From Labilithrix luteola (lineage in GTDB: Bacteria > Myxococcota_A > Polyangia > Polyangiales > Polyangiaceae), in contig JAMFST010000301.1 in assembly GCA_026225435.1 (NCBI GenBank), positions 1 through 16,978 of the forward strand: a DNA stretch of 16,978 bases. The letters run 5' to 3'. The position numbers were made by a program, and so were the translations under genes. This document shows, piece by piece, positions 1 to 16,978 of this stretch (position 1 is the first letter of the stretch; each line of letters begins with the position of its first letter). The notes under the pieces were generated by a model. That model ran no database searches. It worked only from the letters and a program-made list of their open reading frames with translations, and had not been told where the DNA came from.

Positions 1-1
1 G

Positions 2-346
2 AGCAGCGTCGCCTATATCGGCCCCGGGATCGCCGACACGCTGCTGACCCGCGCGGCCGACGTGATGCTCAAGGAGCGCCGCTCCCTCATCCTGGTGCCG
101 CGTGAGACGCCGCTCTCGGTGGTGCACCTGGAGAACATGCTGACGGTGTCGAAGGCGGGGGCGCTCGTGTTGCCGGCGATGCCGTCCTTCTATGCGCAGC
201 CGCGGACGATCGAGCAGGTGCTCGACACCGTGGTCGCGCGCATCTGCGACCACCTCGGGGTGGCGACCGATCTGATGAAGCGTTGGGGTTCGGGCGAGGG
301 CGGCGACAGCGCCAGCACGCCCGCGAAAGGAAACACGGCCGGATGA
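2..346 (+). CDS. ubiX: UbiX-family flavin prenyltransferase, C-terminal part (5' end outside window)
   Basis: The open frame enters at base 2 with no start in the window, so only the last 114 residues are seen. They contain the UbiX signature: AADVMLKERR, then LVPRETPLS and HLENML, then a hydrophobic stretch ending MPSFY, which in this family line the FMN and prenyl-phosphate site. The family makes prenylated FMN, the cofactor of UbiD-type decarboxylases. Beside mqn genes the likely role is to supply a UbiD-like enzyme (MqnL) that decarboxylates the naphthoate intermediate of menaquinone synthesis; such a copy is sometimes called MqnM. The last ~20 residues are a hydrophilic Ser/Gly-rich tail. 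The TGA overlaps the next ATG (ATGA), implying translational coupling. Family call is firm; the pathway assignment rests on neighbours. Confidence 0.92.
   Translation, partial: SSVAYIGPGIADTLLTRAADVMLKERRSLILVPRETPLSVVHLENMLTVSKAGALVLPAMPSFYAQPRTIEQVLDTVVARICDHLGVATDLMKRWGSGEGGDSASTPAKGNTAG
325..331 (+). promoter_or_regulatory. Ribosome binding site deciding the start at 343
   Basis: GAAAGGA lies 11 bases before the ATG at 343. The frame stays open upstream to an ATG at 283, but that start would put 60 bases inside the UbiX gene. The Shine-Dalgarno-like site plus the ATGA overlap favour 343. Confidence 0.6.
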
Positions 347-936
347 CCAGCATGCTCGTGAAGCGCTCCCTCCTCGCCGCCGGTCTCGGGCCGGTGGACG
401 AGGCGCGCGCCAATGGTGACCTCGTCGCGGTGAAGGCCGCCGTGCCGCTGCTCGAGAAGGCGGATCTGCTACCGCTCGGCGCGCTCGCCGACGCCATCCG
501 CGCGCGCGAGGTCGGGGCCGAGGTGCACGTGCACCTGCAGGCGCCCAACGAGTCGCTCGTCACCGTCGTCCACGCCGATCCCGAAGGCGGAGCCGCCGGG
601 GTCACCTTCCTCCGCCGCGTGGCCATCGCCCGCATCACCTCCGGCCCGAAGGCGCGCATCGCCGTCGACTGGGTGGAGATCGGCCTCGAGCTGGCGCAGG
701 TGGCGCTCGGCTTCGGTGCCAGCGAGCTGTCCGGCGCGGTCGTCAACAAGCGCGGCCTGCCCATCGCCGACGGCGAGACGCGCAAGATCAAGGGGCAGGG
801 GAACGTGGCCTTCTCCGACATCAAGCTGCGCGAGCTCGAAGGTCTGCTCGCCCGCGTCGGCCGGGTCGTCACCTACGCCGGCGCGCCCGCAGCCGAAAAC
901 GCTTCCGTCACTGCAGTACCAGGAGCCGACGCATGA
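343..936 (+). CDS. MqnE/MqnC-like protein lacking the radical-SAM core
   Basis: A 197-residue protein with no CxxxCxxC cluster motif and no recognisable SAM-binding barrel, yet both ends resemble the radical-SAM futalosine enzymes next door. Residues ~41-60 (DLLPLGALADAIRARE) match the N-terminal helix of MqnE (NLLKVGALANEVRERL) and of MqnC (ELFDLGLAADAVRNRK). Residues ~85-135 (FLRRVAIARI ... ELAQVALGFGASELSGAVV) match their C-terminal segment (LAVSRLMLDN ... DVAQIGLAFGADDLDGTIV), and the match continues weakly to ~185. About 230 residues of core are missing between the two. There is no frameshift, and the gene sits in frame with 4-base overlaps on both sides, so it looks functional. It cannot do the radical chemistry itself; a partner or scaffold for MqnE or MqnC, or a binding protein for their intermediates, is a guess from position. 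The homology was read by eye. Confidence 0.75.
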   Translation: MTSMLVKRSLLAAGLGPVDEARANGDLVAVKAAVPLLEKADLLPLGALADAIRAREVGAEVHVHLQAPNESLVTVVHADPEGGAAGVTFLRRVAIARITSGPKARIAVDWVEIGLELAQVALGFGASELSGAVVNKRGLPIADGETRKIKGQGNVAFSDIKLRELEGLLARVGRVVTYAGAPAAENASVTAVPGADA

Positions 937-2159
937 CCGACACGCGACCGAGTTTTGCCGAGATCGAGAAGAAGGTTCGTGCCGGGGAGCGCCTCACCGC
1001 CGAGGACGGCATGACGCTGTTCCACGAGCCCAACCTGCTCAAGGTGGGCGCGCTGGCCAACGAGGTGCGCGAGCGGCTGCACGGCGATCGCACCTACTTC
1101 AACCGCAACATGCGCCTCGAGGTCACCAACGTCTGCATGGCGTCGTGCCTCTTCTGCAGCTTCGCCAAGCTGGAAGAGCACATGCCCGGCTCGCACACGA
1201 TGACCCTCGACGAGGCGTGGCACGAGCTCGAGACGCGGATGGACAACCCGCCGAGCGAGCTCCACGTGGTCAACGGGCTGCACCCGGGGCTGCCGTTCTC
1301 CTATTACACGGACCTGCTGAAGGGCTTCAAACGCATCAAGGCGGACATCCACCTGAAGTGCTTCACCGCGGTGGAGATCCACTTCTTCGCCCGGCACTAC
1401 GGCAAGACCTACGAGCAGGTGCTGCTCGAGCTGCGCGAGGCGGGGCTCGACAGCCTGCCGGGCGGCGGCGCGGAGATCTTCCACCCGGACGTGCGCTCGC
1501 GCATCTCGCACGACAAGGCGACCGGCGACGACTACCTCGAGGTCCATCGCGTGGCGCACCGCCTCGGCATGATGACCAACGCGACGATGCTCTACGGGCA
1601 CATCGAGACCTTCGAGCACCGGGTCGACCACCTGCTGCGCCTGCGCGGCCTGCAGGACGAGAGCCTCGCGCTGGCGAAGGCGGCTGCAAGTAACGGCGGC
1701 ACGGAGCCTCGCGGGATCCTCCAGGCGTTCATCCCGCTGGCCTTCCACCCGGACGGCAACGGCATGAAGAACCTGCCGGCGCCCACCGCGGTCGACGACC
1801 TGCGCACCCTCGCCGTCTCGCGGCTGATGCTCGACAACTTCGAGCACGTGAAGGCCTACTGGGTCTCCAGCGGCCCGGACGTGGCGCAGATCGGCCTCGC
1901 CTTCGGCGCCGACGATCTCGATGGTACAATTGTCCACGAGACGATCTACAAGGCGGCCGGCTCGAACAGCCCGTCGGGGCTCACCGAGAAGGACCTGGTG
2001 CGCCTGATCCGCGAGGCGGGGCGCATCCCCATCGAGCGCGACACGCTCTACCGGGTGGTCAAGGAGTACGACAAGGCGGCCATGCCCGAGGCGGCCCTCA
2101 AGGTGCGCGACCGCAAGGCGGAGAAGCACCTGTCGATCTTGAAGGAGATCGTCTCGTGA
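933..2159 (+). CDS. mqnE: Aminofutalosine synthase MqnE (radical SAM)
   Basis: A 408-residue radical-SAM enzyme. Cys68, Cys72 and Cys75 form the CX3CX2C motif (CMASCLFC) for the 4Fe-4S cluster. Family landmarks follow: VVNGLHPGLPFSYY, HLKCFTAVEI, AGLDSLPGGGAEIF, NATMLYGHIET and the C-terminal VAQIGLAFGADDLDG. The NGLHP and FTAVEI forms fit MqnE rather than MqnC, which has QGGLNP and LHALSPEE in this operon. MqnE joins 3-[(1-carboxyvinyl)oxy]benzoate, the MqnA product, with SAM to give aminofutalosine in the cytoplasm. The start is supported by AGGAG at 921-925, 7 bases before the ATG, and by the ATGA overlap with the preceding gene. An Ala/Ser insertion near residues 245-255 interrupts the usual DE-GGFQAF region but leaves the frame intact. 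Confidence 0.95.
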   Translation: MTDTRPSFAEIEKKVRAGERLTAEDGMTLFHEPNLLKVGALANEVRERLHGDRTYFNRNMRLEVTNVCMASCLFCSFAKLEEHMPGSHTMTLDEAWHELETRMDNPPSELHVVNGLHPGLPFSYYTDLLKGFKRIKADIHLKCFTAVEIHFFARHYGKTYEQVLLELREAGLDSLPGGGAEIFHPDVRSRISHDKATGDDYLEVHRVAHRLGMMTNATMLYGHIETFEHRVDHLLRLRGLQDESLALAKAAASNGGTEPRGILQAFIPLAFHPDGNGMKNLPAPTAVDDLRTLAVSRLMLDNFEHVKAYWVSSGPDVAQIGLAFGADDLDGTIVHETIYKAAGSNSPSGLTEKDLVRLIREAGRIPIERDTLYRVVKEYDKAAMPEAALKVRDRKAEKHLSILKEIVS

Positions 2160-4078
2160 GCGAACGAGTCTCCACCAAGCTGCGCGTCTCCGCCGTCGAG
2201 TACCTCAACGCCCAGCCGCTCTATCTCGCGCTGGCGGGGAACCCGGACGTGGAGCTCGACACCGCGTTGCCGGCCGAGGTCGCGCGGCGGGTCGCCGAGG
2301 ACGAGACGGACCTCGCGCTCATGCCGGTGGCGGCGGCGGCGACCATCGGTGACCTGCGCCTGGTGCGCGGGATGGGGATCTGCGCGCGCGGCAAGGTGCG
2401 CAGCGTGGTCATCGTCTCCGAGCGGCCGCTCGAGGAGCTCACCGAGGTGTCGCTCGATCTGTCGTCGCGCACCAGCGTGGTGCTGGCGCGGCTGGTGATC
2501 CGTCACCGCCTCGGCGGCAAGGAGCCGAAGTATGTCGGGCGCGTGGCGGCGGACGCCATCGCGTCCATCGGCGGGACCACCGGCGCGGTCGTCATCGGCG
2601 ATCCGGCGCTGCGTATCGAGGGGAAGCCGGCGTACACGCTGGACCTCGCCGAGGCGTGGCGCGAGTGGACCGGGCTGCCGTTCGTCTTCGCCGCCTGGTT
2701 CGGTCGTCCCGGCGCGCTCGATGCCGCACAGGAGGCCATCATCCAGAAGGCGAAGGTCGACGGCATGGCCCGTCGTGACGAGATCTCCGACGCGTGGGCC
2801 AAGGCCAACGGGCGCGACGAGCTGCTGGCGAGCTACCGCTCGTACGTGCACGACACCATCCGCTACGACCTGGGAGACGAGGAGGCGCAGGCGCTGGCGC
2901 GCTTCTACGAGGAGGCGCACAAGGCCGGCCTGCTCCCCAAGGCGGAGGTGCGCTTCTTCGATCAAGATCGCGACGACGTCGCCTCCGGCAGCAAGCCGGC
3001 GCAGCGGCAGTCGCTCGACACGTTGCTCGGGCGCGCCGCCGATGGGGAGCGCCTCTCGGCGGCGGAAGGGGAGCGGCTCGTCGCCGAGGCGGAGCTGTTC
3101 GACCTCGGGCTGGCGGCGGACGCGGTGCGCAACCGCAAGCACCCGCACGATGTGGTGACGTACATCGTCGACCGCAACGTCAACTACACCAACGTCTGCA
3201 CCACCAGCTGCCGCTTCTGCGCCTTCTACCGCCCCGTCGGGCACCCCGAGGGCTACGTGCTCTCGCGCGAGGTCCTCGGGCAGAAGCTGCAGGAGGTGGT
3301 CGACGCCGGCGGCGTGCAGATCCTGCTGCAGGGCGGGCTCAATCCGGAGCTGCCCATCGAGTGGTACGAAGATCTCTTCCGCTGGATGAAGAAGGAGTAC
3401 GGGCTCGGCCTGCACGCTCTGTCGCCCGAGGAGATCCTCCACATCGCGCAGATGGAGAAGCTCTCGACCAAGACGGTCCTCGAGCGGCTCCGCGCCGCGG
3501 GGCTCGACAGCGTCCCCGGCGGCGGCGCCGAGATCCTCGTCGACCGCGTTCGCCGCAAGATCGCCAAGGCCAAGTGCACCAGCGAGGACTGGCTCGGCGT
3601 GATGCGCGTCGCCCACCAGATGGGGCTGCGCTCGTCGTGCACCATGATGTACGGCACGGTCGACACCGCCCGTGACCGCATCCAGCACCTGGTGAAGCTG
3701 CGCGATCTGCAGGACGAGACCGGCGGCTTCACCGCCTTCTTCTGCTGGGACTTCCAGCACGAGAGCGGCGTGCGCATCGAGGCCGGCGACCACGGGACGA
3801 TGTTCTACCTGCGGCAGCAGGCGGTCGCCCGGCTGATGCTCGACAACGTGGCCCACGTGGGCGCGTCCTGGGTCACCCAGGGGCCGGACGTCGGGCAGGT
3901 GGCGCTGCGCTTCGGCGCGGACGACTACGGGAGCGTCATGTTCGAGGAGAACGTGGTCTCCAGCGCGGGCACCACGTTCTGCACCAACGCCGGCGCCATC
4001 GAGGCGCGGATCCACGGCGCCGGCTTCCGCGCCGTGCGTCGCAACGTCCGCTACGACTGGCTGAACGAGCCGTCGTGA
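2156..4078 (+). CDS. mqnA-mqnC: Fused chorismate dehydratase-cyclic dehypoxanthine futalosine synthase (MqnA-MqnC)
   Basis: One 640-residue frame carries two pathway enzymes. Residues ~8-270 are MqnA: VSAVEYLNAQPLY at the start, LALMPVAA, SRTSVVLARLV, then GDPALR and EWTGLPFVFAAWFGR, all typical of this periplasmic-binding-protein-like fold that dehydrates chorismate. A short linker (~271-284, DVASGSKPAQ) leads to MqnC, residues ~285-640: Cys348, Cys352 and Cys355 (CTTSCRFC), then LLQGGLNPELPIEWYEDL, HALSPEEI, GLDSVPGGGAEILVDRVR, SSCTMMYGT and VGQVALRFGADDYGS. MqnC cyclises dehypoxanthine futalosine by a SAM radical. The two normally act at steps 1 and 4, not consecutively. GTG start with AAGGAG at 2142-2147, overlapping the mqnE stop as GTGA. 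No stop, frameshift or internal Shine-Dalgarno was noticed at the junction, so a true fusion is likely. Confidence 0.92.
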   Translation: MSERVSTKLRVSAVEYLNAQPLYLALAGNPDVELDTALPAEVARRVAEDETDLALMPVAAAATIGDLRLVRGMGICARGKVRSVVIVSERPLEELTEVSLDLSSRTSVVLARLVIRHRLGGKEPKYVGRVAADAIASIGGTTGAVVIGDPALRIEGKPAYTLDLAEAWREWTGLPFVFAAWFGRPGALDAAQEAIIQKAKVDGMARRDEISDAWAKANGRDELLASYRSYVHDTIRYDLGDEEAQALARFYEEAHKAGLLPKAEVRFFDQDRDDVASGSKPAQRQSLDTLLGRAADGERLSAAEGERLVAEAELFDLGLAADAVRNRKHPHDVVTYIVDRNVNYTNVCTTSCRFCAFYRPVGHPEGYVLSREVLGQKLQEVVDAGGVQILLQGGLNPELPIEWYEDLFRWMKKEYGLGLHALSPEEILHIAQMEKLSTKTVLERLRAAGLDSVPGGGAEILVDRVRRKIAKAKCTSEDWLGVMRVAHQMGLRSSCTMMYGTVDTARDRIQHLVKLRDLQDETGGFTAFFCWDFQHESGVRIEAGDHGTMFYLRQQAVARLMLDNVAHVGASWVTQGPDVGQVALRFGADDYGSVMFEENVVSSAGTTFCTNAGAIEARIHGAGFRAVRRNVRYDWLNEPS

Positions 4079-5349
4079 GCCCCATGCGAGCCCGCCTCTT
4101 CCACGCCGACGGCGTCATCCCGGGGGACGGCGTTCCGTTCCTCGATGGCGCCGTGGTGGTCAGCCAGACCGGCGCCATCGTGGAGGTGGGCAAGGCGACC
4201 GACGTGTTGCCGCGTCACGCCGAGCTGAACGTGGAGCGGATCCGCGGGGTGGTGTTCCCCGGGCTGATCAACGCGCACACCCACGTGGAGCTGTCGGCCA
4301 TGCGGGGGAAGGTCCCGGGCGGCGCCGGCTTCGTTCCCTGGGTGGAACGGCTGGTGACCACGCGCCCCGAGCTCGACGAGTCCGAGGTCGACGAAGCGGT
4401 CGAGCGCTCGGCGCGCGATCTGGCCCGCTACGGCACCGCGGCGGTGGGCGAGGTGACCAACGCGCTCTCGGCCGTCGGAGCGCTGGCGCGCAACGGGATC
4501 GGCGGCTGGATCTTCCACGAGGTCTTCGGCGTCGATCGCGCGCAGGTGATGAAGCGGATCGAGGGGGCCAGGAGCGAGCGGGCCGAGCGCTTCGCCAGCT
4601 GGCCGACGACCGATCTGGCCTACGCGCCGGCGCCGCACACGCTGTACACGACGCACCCCGATGCGGTGCGCGAGCTGCTGGCGAACGCGCGCAACGAGGG
4701 GCTGGTGACGAGCCTGCACCTGGCCGAGCACCCGGCCGAGCGGAGCGCGCTCGAGAGCGGGGAAGGGCCGCTCATGGGGTGGTACCAGCAGCGGCTCGGG
4801 CTCGATCCGGCCAAGCTGACCTGGCCGCACCTCTCGCCGGTGGCCTTCGCCGAGCAGCTGGGGGCGCTCGACCCGCGGGTGCTGCTGGTGCACCTCGCCG
4901 ATGCGCGACCGGAGGAGCTCGACCGCGTCGCCGAGAAGGGCTCGCCGGTGGTCCTCTGCCCGCGCTCCAACCTGTACATCGAGAGCCGCCTGCCGCCGCT
5001 CCTGGCCATGATCGAGCGCGGGATCGAGCCGGCGCTGGGGACCGACTCGCTCGCCTCGAACGCGTCGCTCGACGTGCTCGCCGAGGCGCGCGCGCTGGCC
5101 GACCGCTTCCCGGGAGTGCCGGCGGCGGACCTGGTGACGATGGCCACCTGGAACGGGGCGCAGGCGCTCTCGCGTCCGGACCTCGGTCGCTTCGCCCCGG
5201 GCACGCAGCCAGGGGTGCTCGCGGTCGAAGGGAAGCTCGCGGCAGGGCAGGGGCCGGCGCACTTCCTCCTCGCCAACGTGTCCAAGGATCGCCGCTGGTT
5301 GGTGCGGCGCGCCAAGATCGAAACCCCGACTCTGCCCAGCTTCTCCTGA
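4075..5349 (+). CDS. mqnX: Amidohydrolase, probable aminodeoxyfutalosine deaminase
   Basis: A 424-residue amidohydrolase of the COG0402-like (chlorohydrolase/deaminase) type. Metal and catalytic residues are visible in order: His68 and His70 (NAHTHVE), His215, Glu218 and His219 (HLAEH), His273 (VHLADA), and Asp324 (GTDSLASN). The barrel is flanked by the usual short beta-sandwich strands at both ends. Members of this group are known to deaminate 6-aminodeoxyfutalosine to futalosine, and the position directly after mqnA-mqnC makes that the best fit. Related purine, guanine or S-adenosylhomocysteine deaminases cannot be excluded from sequence alone. If correct, the organism uses the route through futalosine and needs an MqnB hydrolase elsewhere. 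The start is GTG at 4075, overlapping the previous stop as GTGA; ATG at 4084 is the alternative and would shorten the protein by three residues. Confidence 0.85.
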   Translation: MSPMRARLFHADGVIPGDGVPFLDGAVVVSQTGAIVEVGKATDVLPRHAELNVERIRGVVFPGLINAHTHVELSAMRGKVPGGAGFVPWVERLVTTRPELDESEVDEAVERSARDLARYGTAAVGEVTNALSAVGALARNGIGGWIFHEVFGVDRAQVMKRIEGARSERAERFASWPTTDLAYAPAPHTLYTTHPDAVRELLANARNEGLVTSLHLAEHPAERSALESGEGPLMGWYQQRLGLDPAKLTWPHLSPVAFAEQLGALDPRVLLVHLADARPEELDRVAEKGSPVVLCPRSNLYIESRLPPLLAMIERGIEPALGTDSLASNASLDVLAEARALADRFPGVPAADLVTMATWNGAQALSRPDLGRFAPGTQPGVLAVEGKLAAGQGPAHFLLANVSKDRRWLVRRAKIETPTLPSFS

Positions 5350-5360
5350 ACAGGTCTCCC

Positions 5361-6233
5361 ATGAACGTCGCCACTCGCCTCCGCACGTACGGTTCGCTCG
5401 TCACCTTCAGCCACACCATCTTCGCGTTGCCGTTCGCGGCGAGCGCGGTGGTGCTCGCGCAGGCCGAGCCCCACGTGCCGCTCACCGCGGTCCGCGTGGT
5501 GCTGATGCTGGTGTGCATGGTCTCGGCCCGCACCGCCGCCATGGCGTACAACCGCTACGCCGACCGGGACGTCGACGCGGAGAACCCGCGCACCAAGACG
5601 CGTCACCTGCCGAGCGGCGCGGTGAAGCCTGCCGAGGCGCTCGGTCTCACCGTGGCCAGCGCGGCGGTGTTCATGCTCGCGGCGGCCGGGCTCGGCTTCT
5701 GGCCGATGGTCCTCTCACCGCTCGTCCTCGCGGTGCTCCTCGGCTACTCGCTGGCCAAGCGGTTCACCTGGGCGGCGCACGTGTGGCTCGGGGTCGCGCT
5801 CTCGCTGGCGCCCGGCGGGGCCTGGCTGGCGGCGGGCGCCAAGCCCAACCTCGGCATCGTCTGCTTGATGCTCGGGGTGGTCACCTGGCTGCTCGGCTTC
5901 GACATCTTGTATTCACTCCAAGATGAGCACTTCGACCGCGCGCGCGGTCTGCACTCCATTCCGCAGCGCTTCGGCACGCGCGGCGCGGTCATCTTCTCGG
6001 CGGCGGCGCACGTGGTCACCGTCCTCGCCTTCGCCGGCACCGGCTTCGCCCTCGGGCGCGGGCCGCTGTACTTCACCGGGGTCATCGCGGCGGCCGGGCT
6101 GCTCGTCTACGAGCACTGGATCGTCGGGCCGGGGCGGCTCGAGCGCATCAACAAGGCGTTCTTCGACCTGAACGCGTACGTCAGCGTGGCGTTCTTCGTG
6201 CTCACGCTGCTGGACTCCCTCACCCGCCACTGA
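5361..6233 (+). CDS. mqnP: UbiA-family prenyltransferase, MqnP-like
   Basis: A 290-residue polytopic membrane protein with both aspartate motifs of the UbiA superfamily. NxxxDxxxD is Asn64, Asp68 and Asp72 (NRYADRDVD); DxxYxxxD is Asp181, Tyr184 and Asp188 (DILYSLQDEHFD). These bind Mg-prenyl diphosphate at the membrane. Long hydrophobic segments separate the motifs, in line with the family's eight or nine helices. In the operon context the enzyme should attach the polyprenyl tail to the naphthoate precursor of the futalosine route (MqnP) rather than to 4-hydroxybenzoate (UbiA), which it resembles; sequence alone does not separate the two well. It starts 11 bases after the deaminase stop with only a weak AGG upstream, so reading probably depends on the upstream genes. 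Confidence 0.9.
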   Translation: MNVATRLRTYGSLVTFSHTIFALPFAASAVVLAQAEPHVPLTAVRVVLMLVCMVSARTAAMAYNRYADRDVDAENPRTKTRHLPSGAVKPAEALGLTVASAAVFMLAAAGLGFWPMVLSPLVLAVLLGYSLAKRFTWAAHVWLGVALSLAPGGAWLAAGAKPNLGIVCLMLGVVTWLLGFDILYSLQDEHFDRARGLHSIPQRFGTRGAVIFSAAAHVVTVLAFAGTGFALGRGPLYFTGVIAAAGLLVYEHWIVGPGRLERINKAFFDLNAYVSVAFFVLTLLDSLTRH

Positions 6234-6247
6234 CGTAACCTGCGGGG

Positions 6248-7546
6248 GTGACTCGTCTCGCCGCGCTGGCGGTTCTTCTGGTCGCCTGCCGGGATCACGC
6301 CGAGCCGGTCGAGGCTGGTAGCGCGCTGGATGCGGAGGCCGCGGCCGACGCGTCGCCGCTCGATGCGGCCCCGGTCTCGTCGTGGACGGTGCTCACCGAC
6401 GCGGCGACGAGCGCTCCTCTGGATGCCGCGGCGAGTCGCGCGGCTGGCCCGCTCGATGCTGGCGCTTCGGCCTGCAAGCGCATCTACGGTCCGGCGCGGC
6501 AGCCGTTCGACGGTCCGGCGGCGATGGCCGTGCGGGGGGACCGGCTCGAGCTCGTCACCAACGACCGCGGCAAGCCGCAGATCACCACGGTGCCCATCCC
6601 CGCGTCGCTCACCGCGGTGGTCCCGCCGTCGCTCGCCGAGCCGGCGCACCTGCGCGACACGGTGCACCCCCCGTGCGCCATCGCCGGGGAGACGGTCTAC
6701 TGTGTCGGCCCCGGGAGCATCCTGACGCGCTTTCCCCGCGAGGGGGCACCGAAGGAGGTGGCCACGGTCATCGGCGTGCGCGGGATCGCCGCCGCTCCGC
6801 TCGGCAGCGGGCACGACGTGGTCGCCTTCCACCAGCAGCGCAAGACCAGCGAAGGCTTCGTCACCGAGGGCTGGATCTCGCTCGACGGGCAGCCCCCCGA
6901 GCACCTCTCGGAGGAGGGGAGCGGGGCGACGGCGCTCGACCTCGCCGTTGCGCCGACGCCGCCCGGTGCGCCCCCCGAGGTGCTCGCGCTGTCGCTCGAT
7001 GCCCGCGTGGCGATGACCCCGATGCACGCCCGGCACGTGACGCTCGACGCGGCGAGCCCCACGCGCCTGCATCTCGGCACGGACGAGGTCGTCTTCATCG
7101 GTCCCCTCGCCGAGCCCGGGACCGTGCCCCGCCTCGGCACGAGTCGCTCCGCGGCCTATGCGCTCGCGGCCTGGCCGCGGGACGCCGCTGACTTCGGCCT
7201 CTCGGTGGTCCCCCTCCCGGAGGCGCTCCGCATCGATCTCCCGGCGGTGTGGTCGATCTACCCGAACGGCCTCGACCCGGCGCCGCTGGCGGCCACCCGA
7301 GGGAGCGATCCGGTCGCCGTCGCCCGCATCGTGCCGGCCGGGCGCGAGCTGCCCACCGATCCGAAGCGCGAGCTCGTCCTCGAGCTGGGAGCGCTCGCCG
7401 CCGACGGCGCTTTCCTCTCCGCCGGCGAGGTTGCCCGCGGCCGCCGCCTGGCCGACCTGTCGGTCACCCGCGACGACAAGGGGGCCGTCTGGCTCCTCTG
7501 GTCGGACAACGACGGCACCTGGCTAGAGCGGCGCGTGTGCCCGTGA
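6248..7546 (+). CDS. Predicted lipoprotein of unknown function
   Basis: I do not recognise a family. The 432-residue product starts with a short signal peptide (MTRLAALAVLLVAC) whose lipobox LVAC would give a lipidated Cys14. Residues ~20-75 are a low-complexity Ala/Asp/Ser linker with PLDA three times (SPLDAAP, APLDAAA, GPLDAGA), common in surface lipoproteins of this kind of organism. The remaining ~355 residues are beta-rich and hydrophilic, with repeated short strands ending in Gly/Asp turns (for example DRLELVTNDRGKPQ and DDKGAVWLLWSDNDGTW), suggesting a beta-propeller-like fold; this is only an impression. Start is GTG, 14 bases after mqnP, with no clear Shine-Dalgarno site. Its presence in the menaquinone transcript may be chance co-transcription. 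Confidence 0.75.
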   Translation: MTRLAALAVLLVACRDHAEPVEAGSALDAEAAADASPLDAAPVSSWTVLTDAATSAPLDAAASRAAGPLDAGASACKRIYGPARQPFDGPAAMAVRGDRLELVTNDRGKPQITTVPIPASLTAVVPPSLAEPAHLRDTVHPPCAIAGETVYCVGPGSILTRFPREGAPKEVATVIGVRGIAAAPLGSGHDVVAFHQQRKTSEGFVTEGWISLDGQPPEHLSEEGSGATALDLAVAPTPPGAPPEVLALSLDARVAMTPMHARHVTLDAASPTRLHLGTDEVVFIGPLAEPGTVPRLGTSRSAAYALAAWPRDAADFGLSVVPLPEALRIDLPAVWSIYPNGLDPAPLAATRGSDPVAVARIVPAGRELPTDPKRELVLELGALAADGAFLSAGEVARGRRLADLSVTRDDKGAVWLLWSDNDGTWLERRVCP

Positions 7547-7559
7547 TAGACGGCTCGCC

Positions 7560-8309
7560 GTGAACGAGAACGCCAGCCAATCCCTCGACGAGACGCGCGC
7601 TTATTACGACGAGTTCTCCCGCGGCTACGAAGCTCAGCGGCGGCCGAACGATCCGCACGGCTACCACGCGCTGGTCGACGACCTGGAGGTCTCGCTCACC
7701 GAGCGCTACGCCCGCGGCAAGGAGCTGCTCGAGTGCGGCTGCGGCACCGGCCTGCTCCTCGAGCGCATGGCGCGGTTCACCTCCAAGGCGACCGGCATCG
7801 ACCTGTCCCCCGGCATGCTGGAGAAGGCGAAGGAGCGCGGGCTCGACGTGACCGTCGGCAGCGTCACCGACCTGCCGTTCCCCGATGCGTCCTTCGACGT
7901 CACCTGCTCCTTCAAGGTGCTGGCCCACGTCCCCGACATCGGCAAGGCGCTCGCCGAGATGGCCCGCGTGACGCGGCCGGGCGGCGTCATCCTCGCCGAG
8001 TTCTACAACCCGCTCAGCTTCCGCGCGCTCGCCAAGCGCCTCGGGCCGGCGGGGAAGATCTCCGCCAGCACGCGTGAGAGCGCGGTCTACACCCGCTTCG
8101 ATGCCCCCTGGGTCATCCCGCGTCTGCTCCCGCCGGGGGTCAGCCTGGAGAGCGCGCGCGGCGTGCGCATCGTCACGCCGGCTGCTGCCGCGATGCGTCT
8201 GCCGATGATGCGCGAGACGTTCCGTCGCCTCGAGACGCGCCTCGCCGACACGAAGATGTCCTTCTTCGGCGGGTTCTACGTGGCCGTGCTTCGACGTAAG
8301 TCTTCCTGA
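7560..8309 (+). CDS. Class I SAM-dependent methyltransferase
   Basis: A 249-residue methyltransferase. Motif I is ECGCGTG (residues 58-64, preceded by ELL), the ribose-binding acidic residue is Asp81 (TGIDLSPGML), then VTDLPFPDASFDVTCSFKVLAHV and the post-motif VTRPGGVILAEFYNP, the common layout of Methyltransf_11 proteins. The last step of menaquinone synthesis is a C-methylation normally done by UbiE/MenG. This protein has similar length but lacks the usual UbiE N-terminus (FDxIAxRYDxxN); instead it begins YYDEFSRGYEAQRR. It is therefore a candidate, not a clear demethylmenaquinone methyltransferase. It may act on an unrelated small molecule. GTG start, 13 bases after the lipoprotein stop, without an evident ribosome site; it appears to be the last gene of this operon. 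Confidence 0.85.
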   Translation: MNENASQSLDETRAYYDEFSRGYEAQRRPNDPHGYHALVDDLEVSLTERYARGKELLECGCGTGLLLERMARFTSKATGIDLSPGMLEKAKERGLDVTVGSVTDLPFPDASFDVTCSFKVLAHVPDIGKALAEMARVTRPGGVILAEFYNPLSFRALAKRLGPAGKISASTRESAVYTRFDAPWVIPRLLPPGVSLESARGVRIVTPAAAAMRLPMMRETFRRLETRLADTKMSFFGGFYVAVLRRKSS

Positions 8310-8314
8310 TCTGA

Positions 8315-8335
8315 TTCAACGAAAAGTTTGTTGAA
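8315..8335. repeat. Inverted repeat after the methyltransferase gene
   Basis: Arms TTCAAC and GTTGAA (6 of 6) flank a 9-base A/T-rich centre, starting 5 bases after the stop at 8309. There is no T-run after it, so it is a poor intrinsic terminator. It could be an operator or a weak transcript end. It stands out as AT-rich in a GC-rich surrounding. Confidence 0.45.
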
Positions 8336-8402
8336 GTCGCTGCGTCGTTCCGCCCCTCGGCGCGCGCGCGTCTAGGACATCCCGTCCGCTCGTTCGCTCG
8401 GT

Positions 8403-8420
8403 CGCCGTGAAAACACGGCG
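8403..8420 (+). promoter_or_regulatory. Perfect hairpin in the leader region of the envelope operon
   Basis: CGCCGTG and CACGGCG form a perfect 7-base-pair stem around an AAAA loop. It lies 48 bases before the ATG at 8469. No T-run follows, so termination is less likely than a 5' UTR stabilising structure or an operator for the downstream operon. The gap 8310-8468 holds this, the inverted repeat at 8315-8335 and presumably the promoter, but no convincing -35/-10 pair was found by eye. Confidence 0.45.
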
Positions 8421-8456
8421 GATCGTCGACGTACATTTCTTGGCGCTCCTTTTGCT

Positions 8457-8463
8457 GAAGGGA
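8457..8463 (+). promoter_or_regulatory. Ribosome binding site of the first envelope-operon gene
   Basis: GAAGGGA, 5 bases before the ATG at 8469. It is one of the clearer Shine-Dalgarno sites in the window and fits a gene at the head of a new transcript. Confidence 0.6.
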
Positions 8464-8468
8464 TCGTC

Positions 8469-9131
8469 ATGCGCGCCGCCGTCGCCCTCGTAGCTGCCGC
8501 CGCGGTGGTCACGGCGCTCACGGCGACCACCGCCGCGCGTGCCGACGGAGTCGACGCTTACTTCCAGGCGGGCGCCGGCGCGACGATGGTGCCGGGGAAC
8601 GACCTGCACGTCGGCTCTGCGACCAGCGTCGGTGCGCGCCAGGTGAGCGGCTCGCTGCGCGTCCCGAGCAACACCTTCTACGCCAGCGCCGAGATCGGCT
8701 TCGGCCTGCAGACCAAGCACGTGGTCATCCCGGTGCTCTCGCTCGGCACCTCCTCGTCGGTCGGCCTGTACGACGAGCAGCGCAGCTCGATCGACGGGAG
8801 CATCGCCCACATCCGCCCCTGGACCGGCGACCTCTACGACTTCGGCTTCGGCGGTCTCGGCTACCGCACGAACTACCGCCGCTGGACCTTCGCCGCGACC
8901 GGTCGCTTCGGCGTCACCTACGAGACCATGGGCGCCGACGCCGCTTACGGCTCGTCGACCTACGACCTCGAGCCGGCGCAGTGGTTCGCCTACGTCCGCC
9001 TCGACGTCGAGGCGTGCCGCCGGCTCGATCCCCTCGAGCGAATCTGCCTCGTCGCCAGCCCCAACGTCTTCGCCTTCGACCAAACCTTCCACGGCGGGAT
9101 GCTCTCGTTCCGCTACGAGCTGGGCAAATGA
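8469..9131 (+). CDS. Secreted, outer-membrane beta-barrel-like protein
   Basis: A 220-residue protein of unrecognised family. It has a clear Sec signal peptide: MR, a long Ala/Val core, and ARA before the predicted cleavage at Ala25/Asp26. The mature part is rich in Gly, Tyr and Phe with alternating-residue strands such as TFYASAEIGFGLQ, YDFGFGGLGYRT, FAATGRFGVTYET and WFAYVRLDVEA, the pattern of small outer-membrane barrels. It ends LSFRYELGK rather than with the usual terminal Phe. Two Cys (in EACRRLDPLERICLV) may form a disulphide. It heads a set of four genes joined by stop-start overlaps. The barrel fold is inferred from composition only. Confidence 0.75.
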   Translation: MRAAVALVAAAAVVTALTATTAARADGVDAYFQAGAGATMVPGNDLHVGSATSVGARQVSGSLRVPSNTFYASAEIGFGLQTKHVVIPVLSLGTSSSVGLYDEQRSSIDGSIAHIRPWTGDLYDFGFGGLGYRTNYRRWTFAATGRFGVTYETMGADAAYGSSTYDLEPAQWFAYVRLDVEACRRLDPLERICLVASPNVFAFDQTFHGGMLSFRYELGK

Positions 9132-10237
9132 GCCACCTGACCAAATGGATGTTCGTCCTGTCGGTGCCGCTCCTCGGAGCGTGCTCCGCCTCTTCCACCA
9201 CCTCCACCGGCGGCGAGACGGATCTCCTCGCCGGCAGCGGCCCCATCCCGCGCCGCTCGACCACCATCGAGATCGACGGCTGCTCCACCGACGCGTGGCA
9301 GGACGAGACGCTCGCCGCCTCCGCCACCCGCAAGGTGGTCCAGGAGATCATCCTCATGTGCCTGGCTCCGCGCGAGGACGGCACCATCGCTCCCGGTGAT
9401 CCCAGCGCCCGCGACGCGCTCGACGCCACCATCGGCTCGCTCCACAACCTCGGCTACACCGTCCGCCTCGGCGTCTCCTTCGTCGACGAGACCGGGGCGC
9501 GCTTCGACGGCGTGCAGACGGCCAGCTGGTTGTCGAGCTCCGGCTGGCGCACCGCGGTGGAGAGCGCCATCGCCGGGTACGCGCCGGACTGCGACGGCTT
9601 CGACCTCGACGTCGAGCGACTCCCCGACGACGCGCGCGACTCGCTCACCGCCTTCGTCGGCGAGCTGTCCACCGCGCTCCAGCCTTCCGGCAAGCGGGTC
9701 GGCATCTTCGTCTTGCCCTCCACGCAGTCACCGTCGGACGTCTCCGGTGGCGACGCCTTCGATCTGCCCGCGCTGGCCGCGGTCACCGATCGGATCCGCG
9801 TCGCCACCCTCGACTTCTCGGTGGGGACACCCGGCCCGACGCTCGACAGCGGCTGGGCGGTCGACGCGGTGAGGTTCGCGCAGTCGACCGTCAGCAGCGC
9901 TGGCAACACCACCGCGCTCTACGACATCGCCGCGCCGCTTTACGGCTGGGACTTCTCCCAGAACACGCAACGCTCCGTCACCTGGCTCGAGGCGACCGCC
10001 CTCGGCGAGACCTACGGCGTCGCGCCCCAGCGCATGCCGGGCGGCGAGGAGGAGCTGGCGTACACCGACGAGTACGACATCAAGCACACCGTGGTGTACG
10101 ACGACGCCTCGTCGACGACGACGTTCCTTCACGCCTGGGACACGAGCACGCTCCCGCAGCAGGTCGGCGTGGTCCTCTGGGGCTTCGGGGCAGAGGATCC
10201 CGAGACCTTCGCCTCCATCGCCAAGGCGCTGCCGTGA
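9128..10237 (+). CDS. GH18-type glycoside hydrolase lipoprotein
   Basis: A 369-residue lipoprotein: signal MSHLTKWMFVLSVPLLGAC with lipobox LGAC and lipidated Cys19. Residues 156-163 read DGFDLDVE, the exact DGxDxDxE signature of glycoside hydrolase family 18, with Glu163 as the acid/base catalyst. Upstream VRLGVSFVDE and downstream RVGIFVLP and RIRVATLDFSV fit barrel strands, and GVVLWGFGAED near the end matches the last GH18 strand. Family members cleave beta-1,4-GlcNAc links in chitin or peptidoglycan; the substrate here is unknown. It is anchored outside the cell, probably acting on wall or exopolysaccharide. The ATG at 9128 overlaps the previous stop (ATGA). The frame is open further upstream, but the lipobox fixes this start. 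Confidence 0.85.
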   Translation: MSHLTKWMFVLSVPLLGACSASSTTSTGGETDLLAGSGPIPRRSTTIEIDGCSTDAWQDETLAASATRKVVQEIILMCLAPREDGTIAPGDPSARDALDATIGSLHNLGYTVRLGVSFVDETGARFDGVQTASWLSSSGWRTAVESAIAGYAPDCDGFDLDVERLPDDARDSLTAFVGELSTALQPSGKRVGIFVLPSTQSPSDVSGGDAFDLPALAAVTDRIRVATLDFSVGTPGPTLDSGWAVDAVRFAQSTVSSAGNTTALYDIAAPLYGWDFSQNTQRSVTWLEATALGETYGVAPQRMPGGEEELAYTDEYDIKHTVVYDDASSTTTFLHAWDTSTLPQQVGVVLWGFGAEDPETFASIAKALP

Positions 10238-11538
10238 GCGCGCTTGCGCCGGTAGTGCCGGTCCGGACGCTGCCGATCAGCGCGGCCGCGGTGCGCCCGC
10301 TCAACAGCGAGGATCCGCTGGCCAACCCCGAGCTCGCGCGTGACCTCGCGCAGACGTACCTCGTGTGGGACGCGTGGGTCGCCGGCAAGCGACGGGTCGA
10401 CGTGCACCCCATCGTGCTCTCGCCGGCCGTCCACCGCGCCGCCGTGGACGCCGCCGAGTCCACCGTCCGCGCCATCGGCGAGATCGCCGCGCTGGCCCAC
10501 CGCGAGCCGCTCGAGCGCGCTCGCTACAAGCTGCACCCGGATGTCCTGCGCCTGGCGCGCGCCTCGCGCGAGATGGGGGACGATGCCGGCCTCTTTCGCG
10601 TCGACCTCCTCTTCGGCGAGGACGGAACCTTCCGCGCCTGCGAGGTCAACGCCGACTGCCCCGGCGGCCACAACGAGGCGCTCGCTCTGCCGCGGCTCGC
10701 CCGCGCGGCCGGCGCGACGTCCTTCTCGAACCCGACGGTGGTGGTCGAGCGACTGGTCGAGCGCCTTGCCCAGCTGGCCGAGGGGGGCACTGCCGTGAGT
10801 GGCCCCGAGCCCGGGGCCGTCGCCCTCGTCTTCGCCACCGCCTACGCCGAGGATCTGCAGATCTGCGCGCTCCTCCAGCGCCAGCTCAAGGCCCGCGGCG
10901 TCGACGCCATCCTCACCAACCCGACCGCCCCGCGCCTGCGCAACGGCGAGCTCTGGGCGCAGGGGCGCGCGATCAAGGTGCTCTACCGCTACTTCCCTGC
11001 AGAATACATGGAAGGGCAGCGCAACCTCGGCGACATCGAGCGCGCCATCCGCTTCGGCACCCTCAAGACGCTGTCGAGCTTCGAGCACATCTTCTCCCAG
11101 TCGAAGCTCGCCTTCGCCCGCGCCTGGGCGCGCCGCCACCAGGTGAGCGCGGAGGCACGCGCCGGGATCGAGGCGCACGTCCCCGAGACCTTCGAGGTGC
11201 CCGACATGAGGCTGCAGACCCTGGTGGCGGAGCGTGAGAGCTGGGTGGTCAAGCGCGCCCTCGGGCGCGTCGGCGACGAGGTCTTCGTCGGCCCGCTCTT
11301 CGATCAGGACGAGTGGGGCTCGCTGATGGCGCAGGTGGTGCAGCGCGCCGGGAGCGGGGAGAGCTGGATCGCCCAGCGCTTCGTCCGCCAGACCCCCGCG
11401 TCGACCCCCTGGGGACCGCGCTACCTCACCCTCGGCGCCTACGTCCAGGATGGACATTTCACCGGCTACTTCACCCGGGCGACGCCGGAGAGCCACGTGT
11501 CGCACGACGCGCTCTGCCTGCCGGTGCTGGTCGCATGA
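10234..11538 (+). CDS. Circularly permuted ATP-grasp ligase (glutathionylspermidine-synthase-like)
   Basis: A 434-residue cytoplasmic protein without signal peptide. It resembles ATP-grasp enzymes of the glutathionylspermidine-synthase/circularly permuted group: FRVDLLFGEDGTF, then CEVNADCPGG (residues 136-145, the conserved EhN-D-PGG element), VLYRYFPAEYMEG, and the nucleotide-binding WVVKRALGRVGDEVFVGP with WIAQRFV further on. Such enzymes join a carboxylate to an amine using ATP, forming amide or peptide bonds. The substrate cannot be told from sequence. It is the only intracellular member of a set whose other three products are exported, so it may make or modify a compound that reaches the envelope. 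GTG start, overlapping the glycosidase stop as GTGA. Confidence 0.78.
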   Translation: MSALAPVVPVRTLPISAAAVRPLNSEDPLANPELARDLAQTYLVWDAWVAGKRRVDVHPIVLSPAVHRAAVDAAESTVRAIGEIAALAHREPLERARYKLHPDVLRLARASREMGDDAGLFRVDLLFGEDGTFRACEVNADCPGGHNEALALPRLARAAGATSFSNPTVVVERLVERLAQLAEGGTAVSGPEPGAVALVFATAYAEDLQICALLQRQLKARGVDAILTNPTAPRLRNGELWAQGRAIKVLYRYFPAEYMEGQRNLGDIERAIRFGTLKTLSSFEHIFSQSKLAFARAWARRHQVSAEARAGIEAHVPETFEVPDMRLQTLVAERESWVVKRALGRVGDEVFVGPLFDQDEWGSLMAQVVQRAGSGESWIAQRFVRQTPASTPWGPRYLTLGAYVQDGHFTGYFTRATPESHVSHDALCLPVLVA

Positions 11539-12521
11539 ACCTCCTCCGCCTCCAGCCGCTGATCTTCGCCGGTCCGCTCGCGTTCCTCGCGACGGGCTGC
11601 TTCCCCGAGTCGTGGACGCCGGCGCTGAGCGTGCAGAACGGCAGCGACGTCCCCGATCTGCGGGCGGTGTACCTGCCGACCTCACAGACGGTGGCGCAGG
11701 CCTGGCAGCTGGCGCCGACCGACAGCTGGGCTCCCTACCAGAAGCTCACCCTCGTCTCCGCGCTCGACACCGGCGCGACCATCGGCTCCCTGCCGGACGT
11801 CCGCGCGCTCGACGTGGTCAACACCGCCAGCGCCGCTGGCGAACGAGTCGGGGCGCGTCTGCCGGCGCGCACGGCGTGGATCGTCGATCTACGCGGCGCC
11901 GCGTCGGTGGCCTTCGGCTCGAGCCTGAGCACCCGCGCCACCTCCCCCGCCTCCTGCGTGCTCACCTTCAACAACTGGCCGGCCGACGACGAGATGGTCC
12001 CGGCGGAGGAGACGCTCTCCTCGCTCATCACCTTCCGCCCCGCACCGCCGCTCGCGCAGAGCACGCACAGTGCCCCGATCTTCCTCCTCGACGCCTGGCG
12101 CCTCGCCTACCGCACCGACCAGGTCCCCGACGACACGATGGACAACCGCTACATGCTCACCTCCGCCGACCTCCCGGACGCGGCCGCCCTGCGCGCGCAG
12201 GGGATCGACAACGTGATGTACGTGGTGGAGAGCCTCGACGACAGCGCGGTCGAGGAGGACGATCTGCACGAGATCTTCCTCGCCTACCAGGCGGCGGGCA
12301 TCTCCATCTCGATGGTCGATCTCGCCTGGCTCACCGGGCAGGACGAGACCGGCGGCCCCATCGACGTCGTCGACGAGCGTTACACCGTGGAGCCGCGCGT
12401 CACCCTCGTGACCGACTTCAACTTCTACCGTCGCGCTCACGGCGGCTTCGGCGGGATCCACGGCGTCCCCAGCGGCCACGGCTGGGGTGGCGGATATTCC
12501 TTCGGCCACGGCGGTGGGTAG
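11535..12521 (+). CDS. Lipoprotein with Gly/His-rich C-terminus, unknown function
   Basis: No family recognised. The 328-residue product has a lipoprotein signal ending ATGC (lipid on Cys22). An early segment (~30-130) is beta-rich and Ala/Asp/Thr-rich; ~155-280 has mixed helix and strand, including APIFLLDAWRLAYRTDQ, GIDNVMYVVESLDDS and AAGISISMVDLAWLTGQDE, suggesting an alpha/beta domain. Residues 302-328 form a low-complexity tail with 14 Gly and 4 His in 27 residues. Such tails can bind metal ions or mediate adhesion, but nothing here proves either. ATG at 11535 overlaps the ATP-grasp stop (ATGA); the upstream open frame is discarded because the signal peptide begins here. It ends with TAG, unlike nearly all its neighbours, and is the last gene of the set. 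Confidence 0.75.
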   Translation: MNLLRLQPLIFAGPLAFLATGCFPESWTPALSVQNGSDVPDLRAVYLPTSQTVAQAWQLAPTDSWAPYQKLTLVSALDTGATIGSLPDVRALDVVNTASAAGERVGARLPARTAWIVDLRGAASVAFGSSLSTRATSPASCVLTFNNWPADDEMVPAEETLSSLITFRPAPPLAQSTHSAPIFLLDAWRLAYRTDQVPDDTMDNRYMLTSADLPDAAALRAQGIDNVMYVVESLDDSAVEEDDLHEIFLAYQAAGISISMVDLAWLTGQDETGGPIDVVDERYTVEPRVTLVTDFNFYRRAHGGFGGIHGVPSGHGWGGGYSFGHGGG

Positions 12522-12560
12522 ACCACTGAACAAGGAATGCGCGGTTTGGCTCGCGGGCTC

Positions 12561-12566
12561 TATACT
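12561..12566 (+). promoter_or_regulatory. Probable -10 box (TATACT) of the S41 peptidase gene
   Basis: TATACT is one base from the sigma-70 -10 consensus and stands out in GC-rich DNA. Transcription would begin near 12573, only ~5 bases before the ATG at 12578. No -35 match is seen at 16-18 bases upstream. Confidence 0.5.
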
Positions 12567-12577
12567 GGCAAACCTCG

Positions 12578-15500
12578 ATGCAGACTTCGCCGATGGCCGC
12601 GCGCCTTCTCAAGTTCGTCGCTATCTTCGTCGTCTTCGGAGCGGCCGCCGGGCTCTCGCTGAAGCTCAATAGCGCCGGGGGAGGCGGCCTGTGGGACGGC
12701 CTCGCCCCCATCGTCTCCGCCGCCGAGAGCACCTCGCCGCACAAGGGGCAGGACTACGACCTGGTGAAGATGCAGGTGGTCCAGGAGGTCATCAAGACCA
12801 TCCGCGATCGCTACGTCGACCCCAAGCGGGTCAAGCCGCGCGAGATGCTGCTCTCGGCGCTCAACTTCATCCAGCGCGACGTGGCCCAGGTCATCGTGCT
12901 GCACGAGGAGAACGCGCCGACGGTGAAGGTGCGGGTCGACACGCAGGAGAAGGAGTTCCGCGTCGACAACGTGCTCGGCCCCTGGGACGTGAGCGGCCGG
13001 CTGCGCGACGTGTTCTCGTTCCTGAAGGACGGCCTGCGCGGCAGCGACGTGGACCTGCAGGAGGTGGAGTACGCGGCTTGCAACGGCATGCTGCACACGC
13101 TCGACCCGCACAGCGTGCTGCTCTCGCCCGAGGCTTACAAGGAGATGAACCTCTCGACCTCCGGCCAGTTCGGCGGGCTCGGGATGGTGGTGTCGATCCG
13201 CGACCAGACGCTCACCGTCATCAACCCGATGCCGGGCACGCCCGCCGGACGCGCGGGGCTGAAGAAGTACGACCGCATCATCAAGATCGGCGGCGAGTCG
13301 ACCCTGAACATGGGGCTCAACGAGGCCGTGCAGCACCTGCGCGGCCTCCCCGGCAGCAAGATCACCCTGTTCATCCGTCGTGACGGCGAGGGCGGGTGGA
13401 AGGATCCGCGCCCCTTCGATCTCACGCGCGAGACGATCCACGTCGAGAGCGTCGAGCACAAGCTGCTCGACGGGAACATCGGCTACGTCCGCCTCAAGCA
13501 GTTCCAGGCGTCGAGCTCGTCGGACCTCGATCAGGCGCTCACCGACATGAAGAAGTCGGGGGAGCTCAAGGGGCTCGTCCTCGATCTGCGCGGCAACCCC
13601 GGAGGTCTGCTCGATCAGGCGGCGCGTATCGTCGACAAGTTCGTCGCCGACGGGCCGATCGTCGCGACGGTGGGCAACTCGTCCGAGGGGCGCGAGGAGA
13701 AGGAAGCGCACGCCGACGGCACCGAGCCGAACTACCCCGTCGTGCTGCTGGTAAGCGGCTCGTCGGCCAGCGCCAGCGAGATCGTCGCCGGCGCCATGAA
13801 GAACCACGACCGCGCCGTCATCGTCGGCGAGACCACCTTCGGCAAGGGGAGCGTGCAGCTGATCTTCGCCGACCTGCCGGACAAGGCGGCCCTCAAGCTG
13901 ACCATCGCGCAGTACCTGACCGAGCCGGGCGACATCTCGATTCAAGGCACCGGCGTCACGCCGGACATCGAGCTCGACCCGATGACCGTCGACGCGCAGG
14001 AGATGACCCTGAACGTCGACACCGGCGGGATGCTCAAGGAGCGCGATCTGTCGCGCAGCCTGTCGAACACCCGCATCCGCGAGGGGCAGAAGCCGCTCGA
14101 GACGGTGCGCTACGCGCTGACGCAGAAGGATCGCCAGGAGCTGCGCGAGCGGGGAGGGGATCCGGACGATCTGTTCGCCATGGACTTCCCCATCAAGTTC
14201 GCGCGTGACCTCGCGGCGCACGTGCCGCAGGGCAAGCGCCTCGACCAGGTGCGGGCGGCGAAGAACGTCATCGCCGAGAACCGCGCCACCGAGCTGGCCA
14301 AGGTCGGCGCGGAGCTGAACAAGCTCGGCATCGACTGGAGCGACGCGCCGGGCGATGCGCAGGCGGCCACCCCGGCGGCCCCGCCCGCGAACGTGACGGT
14401 GAAGGTCGAGACCGACCAGCCGAACAACGAGGTGCTCGCCGGCAAGCAGATGAACATGAAGGTCACCGTGACCAACGGCGGGAGCCAGACGCTCTACCGC
14501 CTGTACGCGGCGACCAAGAGCGACGACCCGCTCTTCGACAGCAAGGAGCTCGTCTTCGGCAAGCTCGAGCCGGGCAAGACGCGCACGGCGACCGTGCCGC
14601 TCGGCTGGTGCGACATCGAGGGGCACAAGGCCGGCTCCACCGCCGTGCTGCCGAAGGATGCGCCGCGCGTCTGCAAGGTGCCGAAGGACTCGCTCACCCG
14701 CGCCGACGGCATCAAGGTGCACTTCGAGGAGGCGCGCGGACATGCGCCCGCCGACGCCGAGGTCCACGCCACGGTCACCGCGCTCGAGCGGCCGGTCTTC
14801 GCCTACGGGTACCAGATCGCGGACAACCTGAGCGGCAACGGCGACGGCCGCGTCCAGAAGGGGGAGAGCGTCACGATGTACGTGACGGTGAAGAACGTCG
14901 GCAAGGGGCGGAGCTTCGAGACGCAGGCCAACCTGCGCAACCTGTCGGGCGACGGCGTCCTCCTGCACGAGGGGCGCTTCGACATCTCCGACATGAACCC
15001 CGGTGACACCAAGAAGGTGGTCTTCACCTTCGACGTCACCAACCAGCTGGCCGACCCCGAGGCGAAGGTGGAGCTGTCGATCACCGACACCGATCTGCGC
15101 GAGTCGGTGGTCGACAAGGTCCGCATGCCGATCGCTCCGGCGGCCAGCCTCGCCTCGGCGAACGCCGCGATGAGGGCGAAGGCGAGCGGCGCTGCCATCT
15201 ACGAGGCGCCCGATGCGGCCGCGCGGATGTTCGGCCGGCTGATGGCGGGTACCAGCGTGACCGAGATGGCGACGAGCACCGATTTCGTGAAGGTGGCGCT
15301 CGGCGGCAACCGCTTCGGCTTCGTCCGCGCGAGCGACGTGGAGAACGCCGGCGGCGCGGCTGCCGGTGGTCCGGTGGCCTTCGAGGACGCGCTCGCTCAC
15401 GCTCCGCCGACGATCGAGATTGGCCAGGCTGCGCTGGTGACGCGCGACACGCACGTCTCGGTGAAGGGGCTCACCAGCGACACCGACCGGCTGCTCGACG

Positions 15501-15754: not shown

Positions 15755-15784
15755 GGTTCAGGATGTGGTGCGGGCCTGCTCGCC

Positions 15785-15802
15785 GGGCCCGGGCTCGGGC
15801 CC
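15785..15802. terminator. GC-rich hairpin between convergent genes
   Basis: GGGCCCG, loop GGCT, CGGGCCC: a perfect 7-base-pair stem. It lies 30 bases after the peptidase stop and directly abuts the pdxJ stop on the other strand, so it could end transcription from both sides. The T-run is only two bases on each strand, so intrinsic termination may be weak. Confidence 0.6.
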
Positions 15803-16537: not shown

Positions 16538-16556
16538 GAGGTGTACGATACCGGAC
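16538..16556. promoter_or_regulatory. Possible shared bidirectional promoter for pdxJ and acpS
   Basis: Only 19 bases separate the two start codons. In the middle lies TACGATA (16544-16550). Read forward, TACGAT is a fair -10 box ending 7 bases before the acpS GTG; read in reverse, TATCGT is a fair -10 box ending 7 bases before the pdxJ GTG. Both transcripts would then begin at or within a base or two of the start codon (leaderless), matching the absence of Shine-Dalgarno sites. No good -35 is seen on either side. Confidence 0.4.
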
Positions 16557-16934: not shown

Positions 16935-16978
16935 TCCCCGTCCTCGACACCGCCGGCGCGCGCGCCTTCGACGCGCAC
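16931..16978 (+). CDS. nnr: Probable NAD(P)HX epimerase/dehydratase, first 16 codons
   Basis: Only MIPVLDTAGARAFDAH is visible before the window ends. This resembles the N-terminus of YjeF-type proteins (typically MxxLTxxxMRALDxxA), which repair hydrated NAD(P)H. The gene commonly follows acpS, which supports the call. A good ribosome site, GGAGAAG at 16919-16925, lies 5 bases before the ATG, and the start overlaps the acpS stop. With so little sequence the assignment is tentative. Confidence 0.55.
   Translation, partial: MIPVLDTAGARAFDAH

Follow-up and report, generated by a model that had tools for sequence, protein, structure and literature searches.

The closest described relatives of the gene reported here are MqnE, the aminofutalosine synthase of the futalosine pathway to menaquinone (NCBIfam TIGR03700; PDB entries 6xi9 and 6xig), and the MqnC/CofH proteins (TIGR03699, TIGR03551 and Pfam PF19288). 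The gene, referred to here as X, resembles MqnE in its N-terminal helix, in the C-terminal end of the barrel and in the equivalents of R97, Q119 and G125, but it has about half the length, contains no cysteine, has lost the barrel core and carries a replacement of the T332/E336 loop. A further comparison is offered by catalytically dead paralogues which act as subunits (prozymes and other pseudoenzyme activators). These are known in several superfamilies, and X is like them in being an inactive duplicate kept beside an active paralogue. A literature search by titles and abstract starts returned no subunit of this kind among radical-SAM enzymes, and an open-licence PubMed Central full-text search, read at the same depth, returned no description of a cluster-less MqnE relative. 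In the excerpt of a study in which quinone pathways were annotated in 26,264 genomes, mqnE is not named (PMC13386864).

The window (the whole stretch of DNA that was analysed) comprises 16,978 nt of Labilithrix luteola (assembly GCA_026225435.1, contig JAMFST010000301.1, positions 1–16,978, forward strand). X was found close to its start, among the following genes:

1..346, plus strand: UbiX-like flavin prenyltransferase gene, 3' part, cut by the contig end (TIGR00421, E 1.7e-37)
343..936, plus strand: X, cluster-less MqnE paralogue of 197 aa, ATG at 343 (profiles, AlphaFold model)
933..2159, plus strand: mqnE, complete, CX3CX2C present (TIGR03700, 453.3 bits, above the cut-off of 434.55)
2156..4078, plus strand: mqnA-mqnC fusion (PF02621 at residues 9–255; TIGR03699 at 298–635, 448 bits, above cut-off)
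4075..5349, plus strand: aminofutalosine-deaminase-like amidohydrolase gene (PRK08418, E 1.9e-41, below its cut-off)
5349..6233, plus strand: UbiA/MqnP-like prenyltransferase gene (TIGR01475, 278 bits, above its cut-off)

The initial annotation had described coupled overlaps on both sides of X, and an ATGA is indeed shared at each border, with the ubiX-like stop at 346 and the mqnE start at 933. An AAAGGA sequence upstream of X ends 11 bases before the ATG. An mqnD relative is located on a different contig of this draft genome, in which a futalosine nucleosidase gave a weak, partial match only. Elsewhere in the window, a 1058-aa ORF (12578–15754) resembles a C-terminal processing protease of the PDZ/S41 type to which further domains are attached, and a presumed pdxJ-like gene on the minus strand adjoins a presumed acpS-like gene on the plus strand (about 15800–16930).

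Four parts of X were distinguished:

463..534, plus strand: residues 41–64, N-terminal helix and first strand (DLLPLGALADAIRAREVGAEVHVH), MqnE N-terminus-like (N-half profile; helix 42–56 and strand 60–64 in the AlphaFold model)
595..879, plus strand: residues 85–179, resembling the MqnE barrel at its C-terminal end (profiles, alignments, structure)
748..807, plus strand: residues 136–155, basic loop KRGLPIADGETRKIKGQGNV, of which the MqnE equivalent is GT(I/V)xxE...AG (alignments; role putative)
886..933, plus strand: residues 182–197, variable tail (pLDDT <50)

No cysteine occurs anywhere in the 197 residues of X, and the CX3CX2C cluster motif is therefore absent, as the initial annotation had stated. 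A plain protein query of the genome contigs with X gave no match. The NCBIfam MqnE model TIGR03700 matched X over two stretches (E 1.4e-12; 47.3 bits, under its cut-off), the NCBIfam MqnC model matched at E 4.1e-8, and Pfam CofH_C (PF19288) at E 0.0051 (17.1 bits, below the gathering cut-off of 27 bits). Comparison of whole profiles by hhalign gave 8.2e-14 for X and MqnE versus 7.9e-9 for X and MqnC. The profile match, proposed earlier as a check, is significant, and MqnE 6xi9 was the best profile match to X among solved structures (E 1.4e-4).

The two halves of X were also searched separately. The N-half profile (E<=1e-3) matched 55 of 128 MqnE sequences, none of 25 MqnC and none of 153 reversed sequences; among 1586 other ORFs its ten matches were the nine X genes of loci L063–L071 and a protein of locus L083, described below. 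The C-half profile matched all 25 MqnC and none of the 153 reversed sequences, as well as 23 of the 1586 other ORFs, read as the L083 protein together with X genes and additional MqnE/MqnC frames; it also matched 128 of 128 MqnE, a count which is partly built in because many MqnE were fetched by means of the C-half motif, whereas the N-half count is free of this. For both ends of X the likeness exceeds what chance would give, and that of the N-terminal end indicates MqnE. Whole-profile hhalign placed the N-terminal half on MqnE from residue 162 onward and not on the MqnE N-terminus; the split-profile placement, which rests on about 45 residues, is preferred because it is local and controlled. 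The earlier description of X as having both ends like MqnE/MqnC thus stands for the C-terminal part, which is like both, and needs correction for the N-terminal part, which is like MqnE and not MqnC. X shares descent with MqnE.

A structure of X was predicted with AlphaFold2 from an alignment of 10 sequences (X and nine relatives) from which MqnE was absent. The protein on its own was predicted to fold, with a mean pLDDT of 82.4 and a pTM of 0.78, and the 18 residues with pLDDT below 50 fall chiefly in the tail 182–197. In a Foldseek search of the PDB with this model, the two MqnE entries, with four chains between them, took ranks 1–4 of 760 (probability 1.00, E 1.2e-3 to 4.3e-3, with no match at E<=0.001), and further radical-SAM enzymes, HydG, ThiH and PylB among them, came next. 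X superposes on MqnE over part of the chain only (TM-score 0.33, rmsd 4.7–9.6). Judged by the AlphaFold elements and the length of X, a complete barrel with the SAM-binding strands is absent. The earlier remark that there is no room for the barrel therefore applies to X itself, but its relatives in the class can be longer.

In the C-terminal part, R97, L122 and G125 were retained in all 22 thinned X rows, and Q119 and A126 in 95% of them, as in MqnE, while T332 and E336, which are invariant across 50 MqnE rows, are substituted in X. The f20 form of X has Glu at the E336 position in 83% of rows. The position of MqnE Tyr309 is occupied by Asp in 63% of short X rows, in 12 of 12 f20 rows and in 16 of 16 rows of the Acidobacteriota relative described below; this may reflect kinship or convergence, since the f16 form has Arg there and not Asp. 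With the catalytic centre lost while the reading frame and other residues are conserved, X has the character of a pseudoenzyme under selection. Having neither a cluster site nor the barrel core, X cannot, by what is currently known of the superfamily, carry out radical-SAM chemistry itself.

Of 58 relatives, the window's own genome apart, 15 have an X that is clearly recognizable (E at most 2.5e-12). MqnE over the family cut-off was found in 42 of the 124 genomes of the window's class, and the stretch upstream of mqnE was inspected in every one of these 42 loci, the window included. A cluster-less MqnE-like frame lies just upstream of mqnE in 41 of them (the window, 39 recognized with the X profile (E<=0.0021), and G410 recognized at 8e-72 by the profile of another X form, with family codes f69/f72), the lack of the motif being by construction, as frames were selected for lacking CX3CX2C. 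This bears out the expectation that the same gene would be seen in related genomes. X is cut by the contig end in G452, and a sister profile matched the G404 frame far better (5e-64). Among the 42 genomes, G458 alone has an mqnE with no X alongside; the same was observed in G045, from another search, which has no X elsewhere in the genome at the search sensitivity used. As both genomes keep mqnE without an adjoining X, X is not indispensable.

Of 53 loci scored, 48 show an overlap between the X stop codon and the closest in-frame start of mqnE; this is an upper reading because the script chose the nearest start and so favoured overlap; for this count L189 (cysteine site misplaced), L185, L196 and L200 were dropped by hand, and L171 was outside the score. 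An assembly artefact is unlikely, as X adjoins mqnE in the single-contig genomes G019 and G454 too. In other classes of the phylum, all 20 mqnE loci (of 61 genomes listed) were without X beside mqnE. Two weak cluster-less matches in L295, outside the class (E 0.0019 and 0.009), resemble on reading shadow frames of ubiX and mqnE. When 40 genomes from several phyla, Acidobacteriota among them, were searched with a profile, each yielded one to three matches, mostly frames of MqnE/MqnC length, and two genomes yielded 143-aa frames as well.

The class forms range overall from about 168 to 285 aa. Of 56 class frames kept by script, L185 and L196 were cut MqnE fragments and were dropped. Complete short forms, found in the window's order (relatives in Polyangiaceae and Sandaracinaceae), have about 168–225 aa. 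The f16 forms (188–273 aa) seem from their sequence to keep an extra strand-helix-strand before the common part, and may on this reading of the alignment represent a half barrel. The f20 forms (190–285 aa) align along most of MqnE (hhalign 1.4e-19). ORF starts in the class were assigned by a script, which left some frames too short or too long; this affects these lengths and a few of the dN/dS pairs given below. In the genus of L161 (about 586–1608, G454) and L163, X has a low-complexity linker with repeated units, e.g. GASAMSEATGANRQ, the length of which varies between species. In trees of the shared C-terminal region, which have only 114–116 columns and long branches, the class forms make up one clade (SH-aLRT 99; 100/99.6 in the second tree), which falls on the side of MqnE and is separate from MqnC. 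X and the MqnC/CofH proteins thus have the C-terminal region in common and differ in the N-terminal part and in their place in the tree. The coexistence of longer and shorter forms allows a stepwise comparison of a TIM-barrel enzyme being stripped into a possible accessory subunit.

A second cluster-less MqnE relative was identified in another phylum. L083 (Vicinamibacteria, Acidobacteriota) encodes at 5437–6333 an MqnE-like protein of 298 aa without CX3CX2C, located directly before mqnA and followed by mqnC, a deaminase-like gene, ubiA and ubiX; this protein passes the CofH_C cut-off (35.1 bits). The relative is present in 18 of 199 genomes of the phylum (E 6.4e-45 or better), including G547, G511, G558 and G613. 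The 16 inspected have 282–305 aa, and none has CX3CX2C. It is directly followed by mqnA in at least 16 of the 18 loci (15 by motif and one by reading), with a stop-start overlap in the three loci displayed. Like X, it is MqnE-derived, without the motif in those inspected, and sits in a futalosine operon; unlike X, it can be aligned over the whole MqnE barrel (hhalign 4.6e-38) and adjoins mqnA, not mqnE. A single clade for X and the Acidobacteriota form received a support of 77 in one tree and a p-AU of 0.41 in the other. The Acidobacteriota profile (E<=1e-34) had no match in 359 genomes of the window's phylum, in a search run without a positive control. That either protein stands in for MqnE was rejected: X precedes a complete mqnE, and MqnE above the cut-off is present in each of the 18 genomes that carry the Acidobacteriota form. 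X as the missing piece of a split MqnE can likewise be set aside, as the window's MqnE is complete.

On the basis of sequence and gene order, X is probably an accessory subunit, not itself catalytic, that serves the enzymes early in the futalosine pathway and most likely MqnE. For an inactive MqnE descendant, the simplest role would be that of a structural or regulatory subunit sitting on MqnE. Such an MqnE-derived pseudoenzyme would be produced in step with the enzymes opening the futalosine pathway to menaquinone; the place before mqnE and the usual overlap, kept despite the wide divergence of X, point to matched production of both proteins, which the overlap may bring about by coupling. X may dock on MqnE and stabilize it, tune it, or hold its substrate or product for hand-over, and could perhaps help the MqnA product into MqnE or aminofutalosine out of it. 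The MqnA product is enolpyruvyl-benzoate, and aminofutalosine is the other candidate compound for X to hold. The position of the Acidobacteriota form, ahead of mqnA, suggests the hand-over from MqnA to MqnE as the step served.

That same placement also fits a different partner. X could belong with MqnA or the MqnA-MqnC fusion and not with MqnE, serving as a scaffold or carrier which moves the MqnA product onward, and in one Vicinamibacteria genome (G464, L277 2901–4887) the real mqnE pairs with an mqnD-like gene, away from the mqnA-mqnC operon. In G458, which is X-less, the 4 kb downstream of mqnE contained no frame flagged as mqnA or mqnC, and an unfused MqnC-like frame of 384 aa lies on another contig; the genes which follow mqnE there (C15, L272) are presumably those of an Na+-translocating NADH:quinone reductase. 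Because G458 has neither X nor a fusion by mqnE, and because of the Acidobacteriota placement, MqnA stays a conceivable partner. However, X-less G045 retains a 745-aa frame with motifs of MqnA and of a radical-SAM enzyme, which speaks against a strict link between X and the fusion. In the window's class it is mqnE that X adjoins and mostly overlaps, and an MqnE descendant would most simply bind MqnE. A partnership with MqnA in place of MqnE is accordingly considered rather unlikely.

A ligand-binding or regulatory protein that has no stable enzyme partner and acts by sensing or sequestering a nucleoside-like compound of the pathway would be compatible with the remaining barrel edge and with the basic loop, which reads KRGLPIADxxxKxxKGxG in most short forms, while GPIxxxRxL recurs in the f16 and f20 forms; the substitution of MqnE pocket residues in X would also be in keeping with it. 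However, the short form is without most of the eight-strand barrel, and a sensor would have no need of the matched production that the overlap with mqnE indicates. Such a function is regarded as improbable.

The dN/dS of X ranged from 0.07 to 0.65 with a median of 0.29 and was below 1 in all 19 pairs, which were chosen by the authors, compared with 0.014 to 0.29 and a median of 0.12 for mqnE in 15 of the 19 pairs. These values indicate that X is under purifying selection, weaker than that on mqnE. The initial annotation had held that X does not look like a decaying pseudogene, and the dN/dS values, the retention across the class and the conserved position before mqnE all speak in the same direction; of the outcomes it had named as contrary to its proposal, namely no profile match, an unrelated fold, or absence of the gene with relaxed selection, none was encountered. 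A slowly eroding duplicate without a present role, which could be read into the differing degrees of shortening across the class, the faster change of X relative to mqnE and its absence beside mqnE in two genomes, is hardly credible given dN/dS below 1 throughout, the invariant residues, the open frame kept by nearly all MqnE-bearing genomes of the class and the confidently predicted fold.

Returning to X as an accessory subunit of MqnE, a wider proposal can be put forward tentatively: aminofutalosine synthase may be a two-component radical-SAM enzyme here, made up of a catalytic MqnE and a dead subunit derived from it that was pared down in one class to a few elements at one edge of the barrel, with a parallel dead subunit encoded before mqnA in another phylum. 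This proposal is less probable than the accessory role itself. X extends a quinone pathway by a gene not listed for it so far, and almost all MqnE-bearing genomes surveyed in the class keep this dead paralogue beside MqnE.

Other unusual frames were seen during the searches. MqnE-like frames of Candidatus Poribacteria (L075, L104, L105, L106, L108, L112, L113, L119, L127 and L134) have NVC-ILHAR-CHFC, that is CX5CX2C and not CX3CX2C. In Verrucomicrobiota, ORFs of 143 aa in L128 (10270–10701) and L142 (5947–6378) match the C-terminal part of MqnE only, and are either fragments or another shortened MqnE relative.
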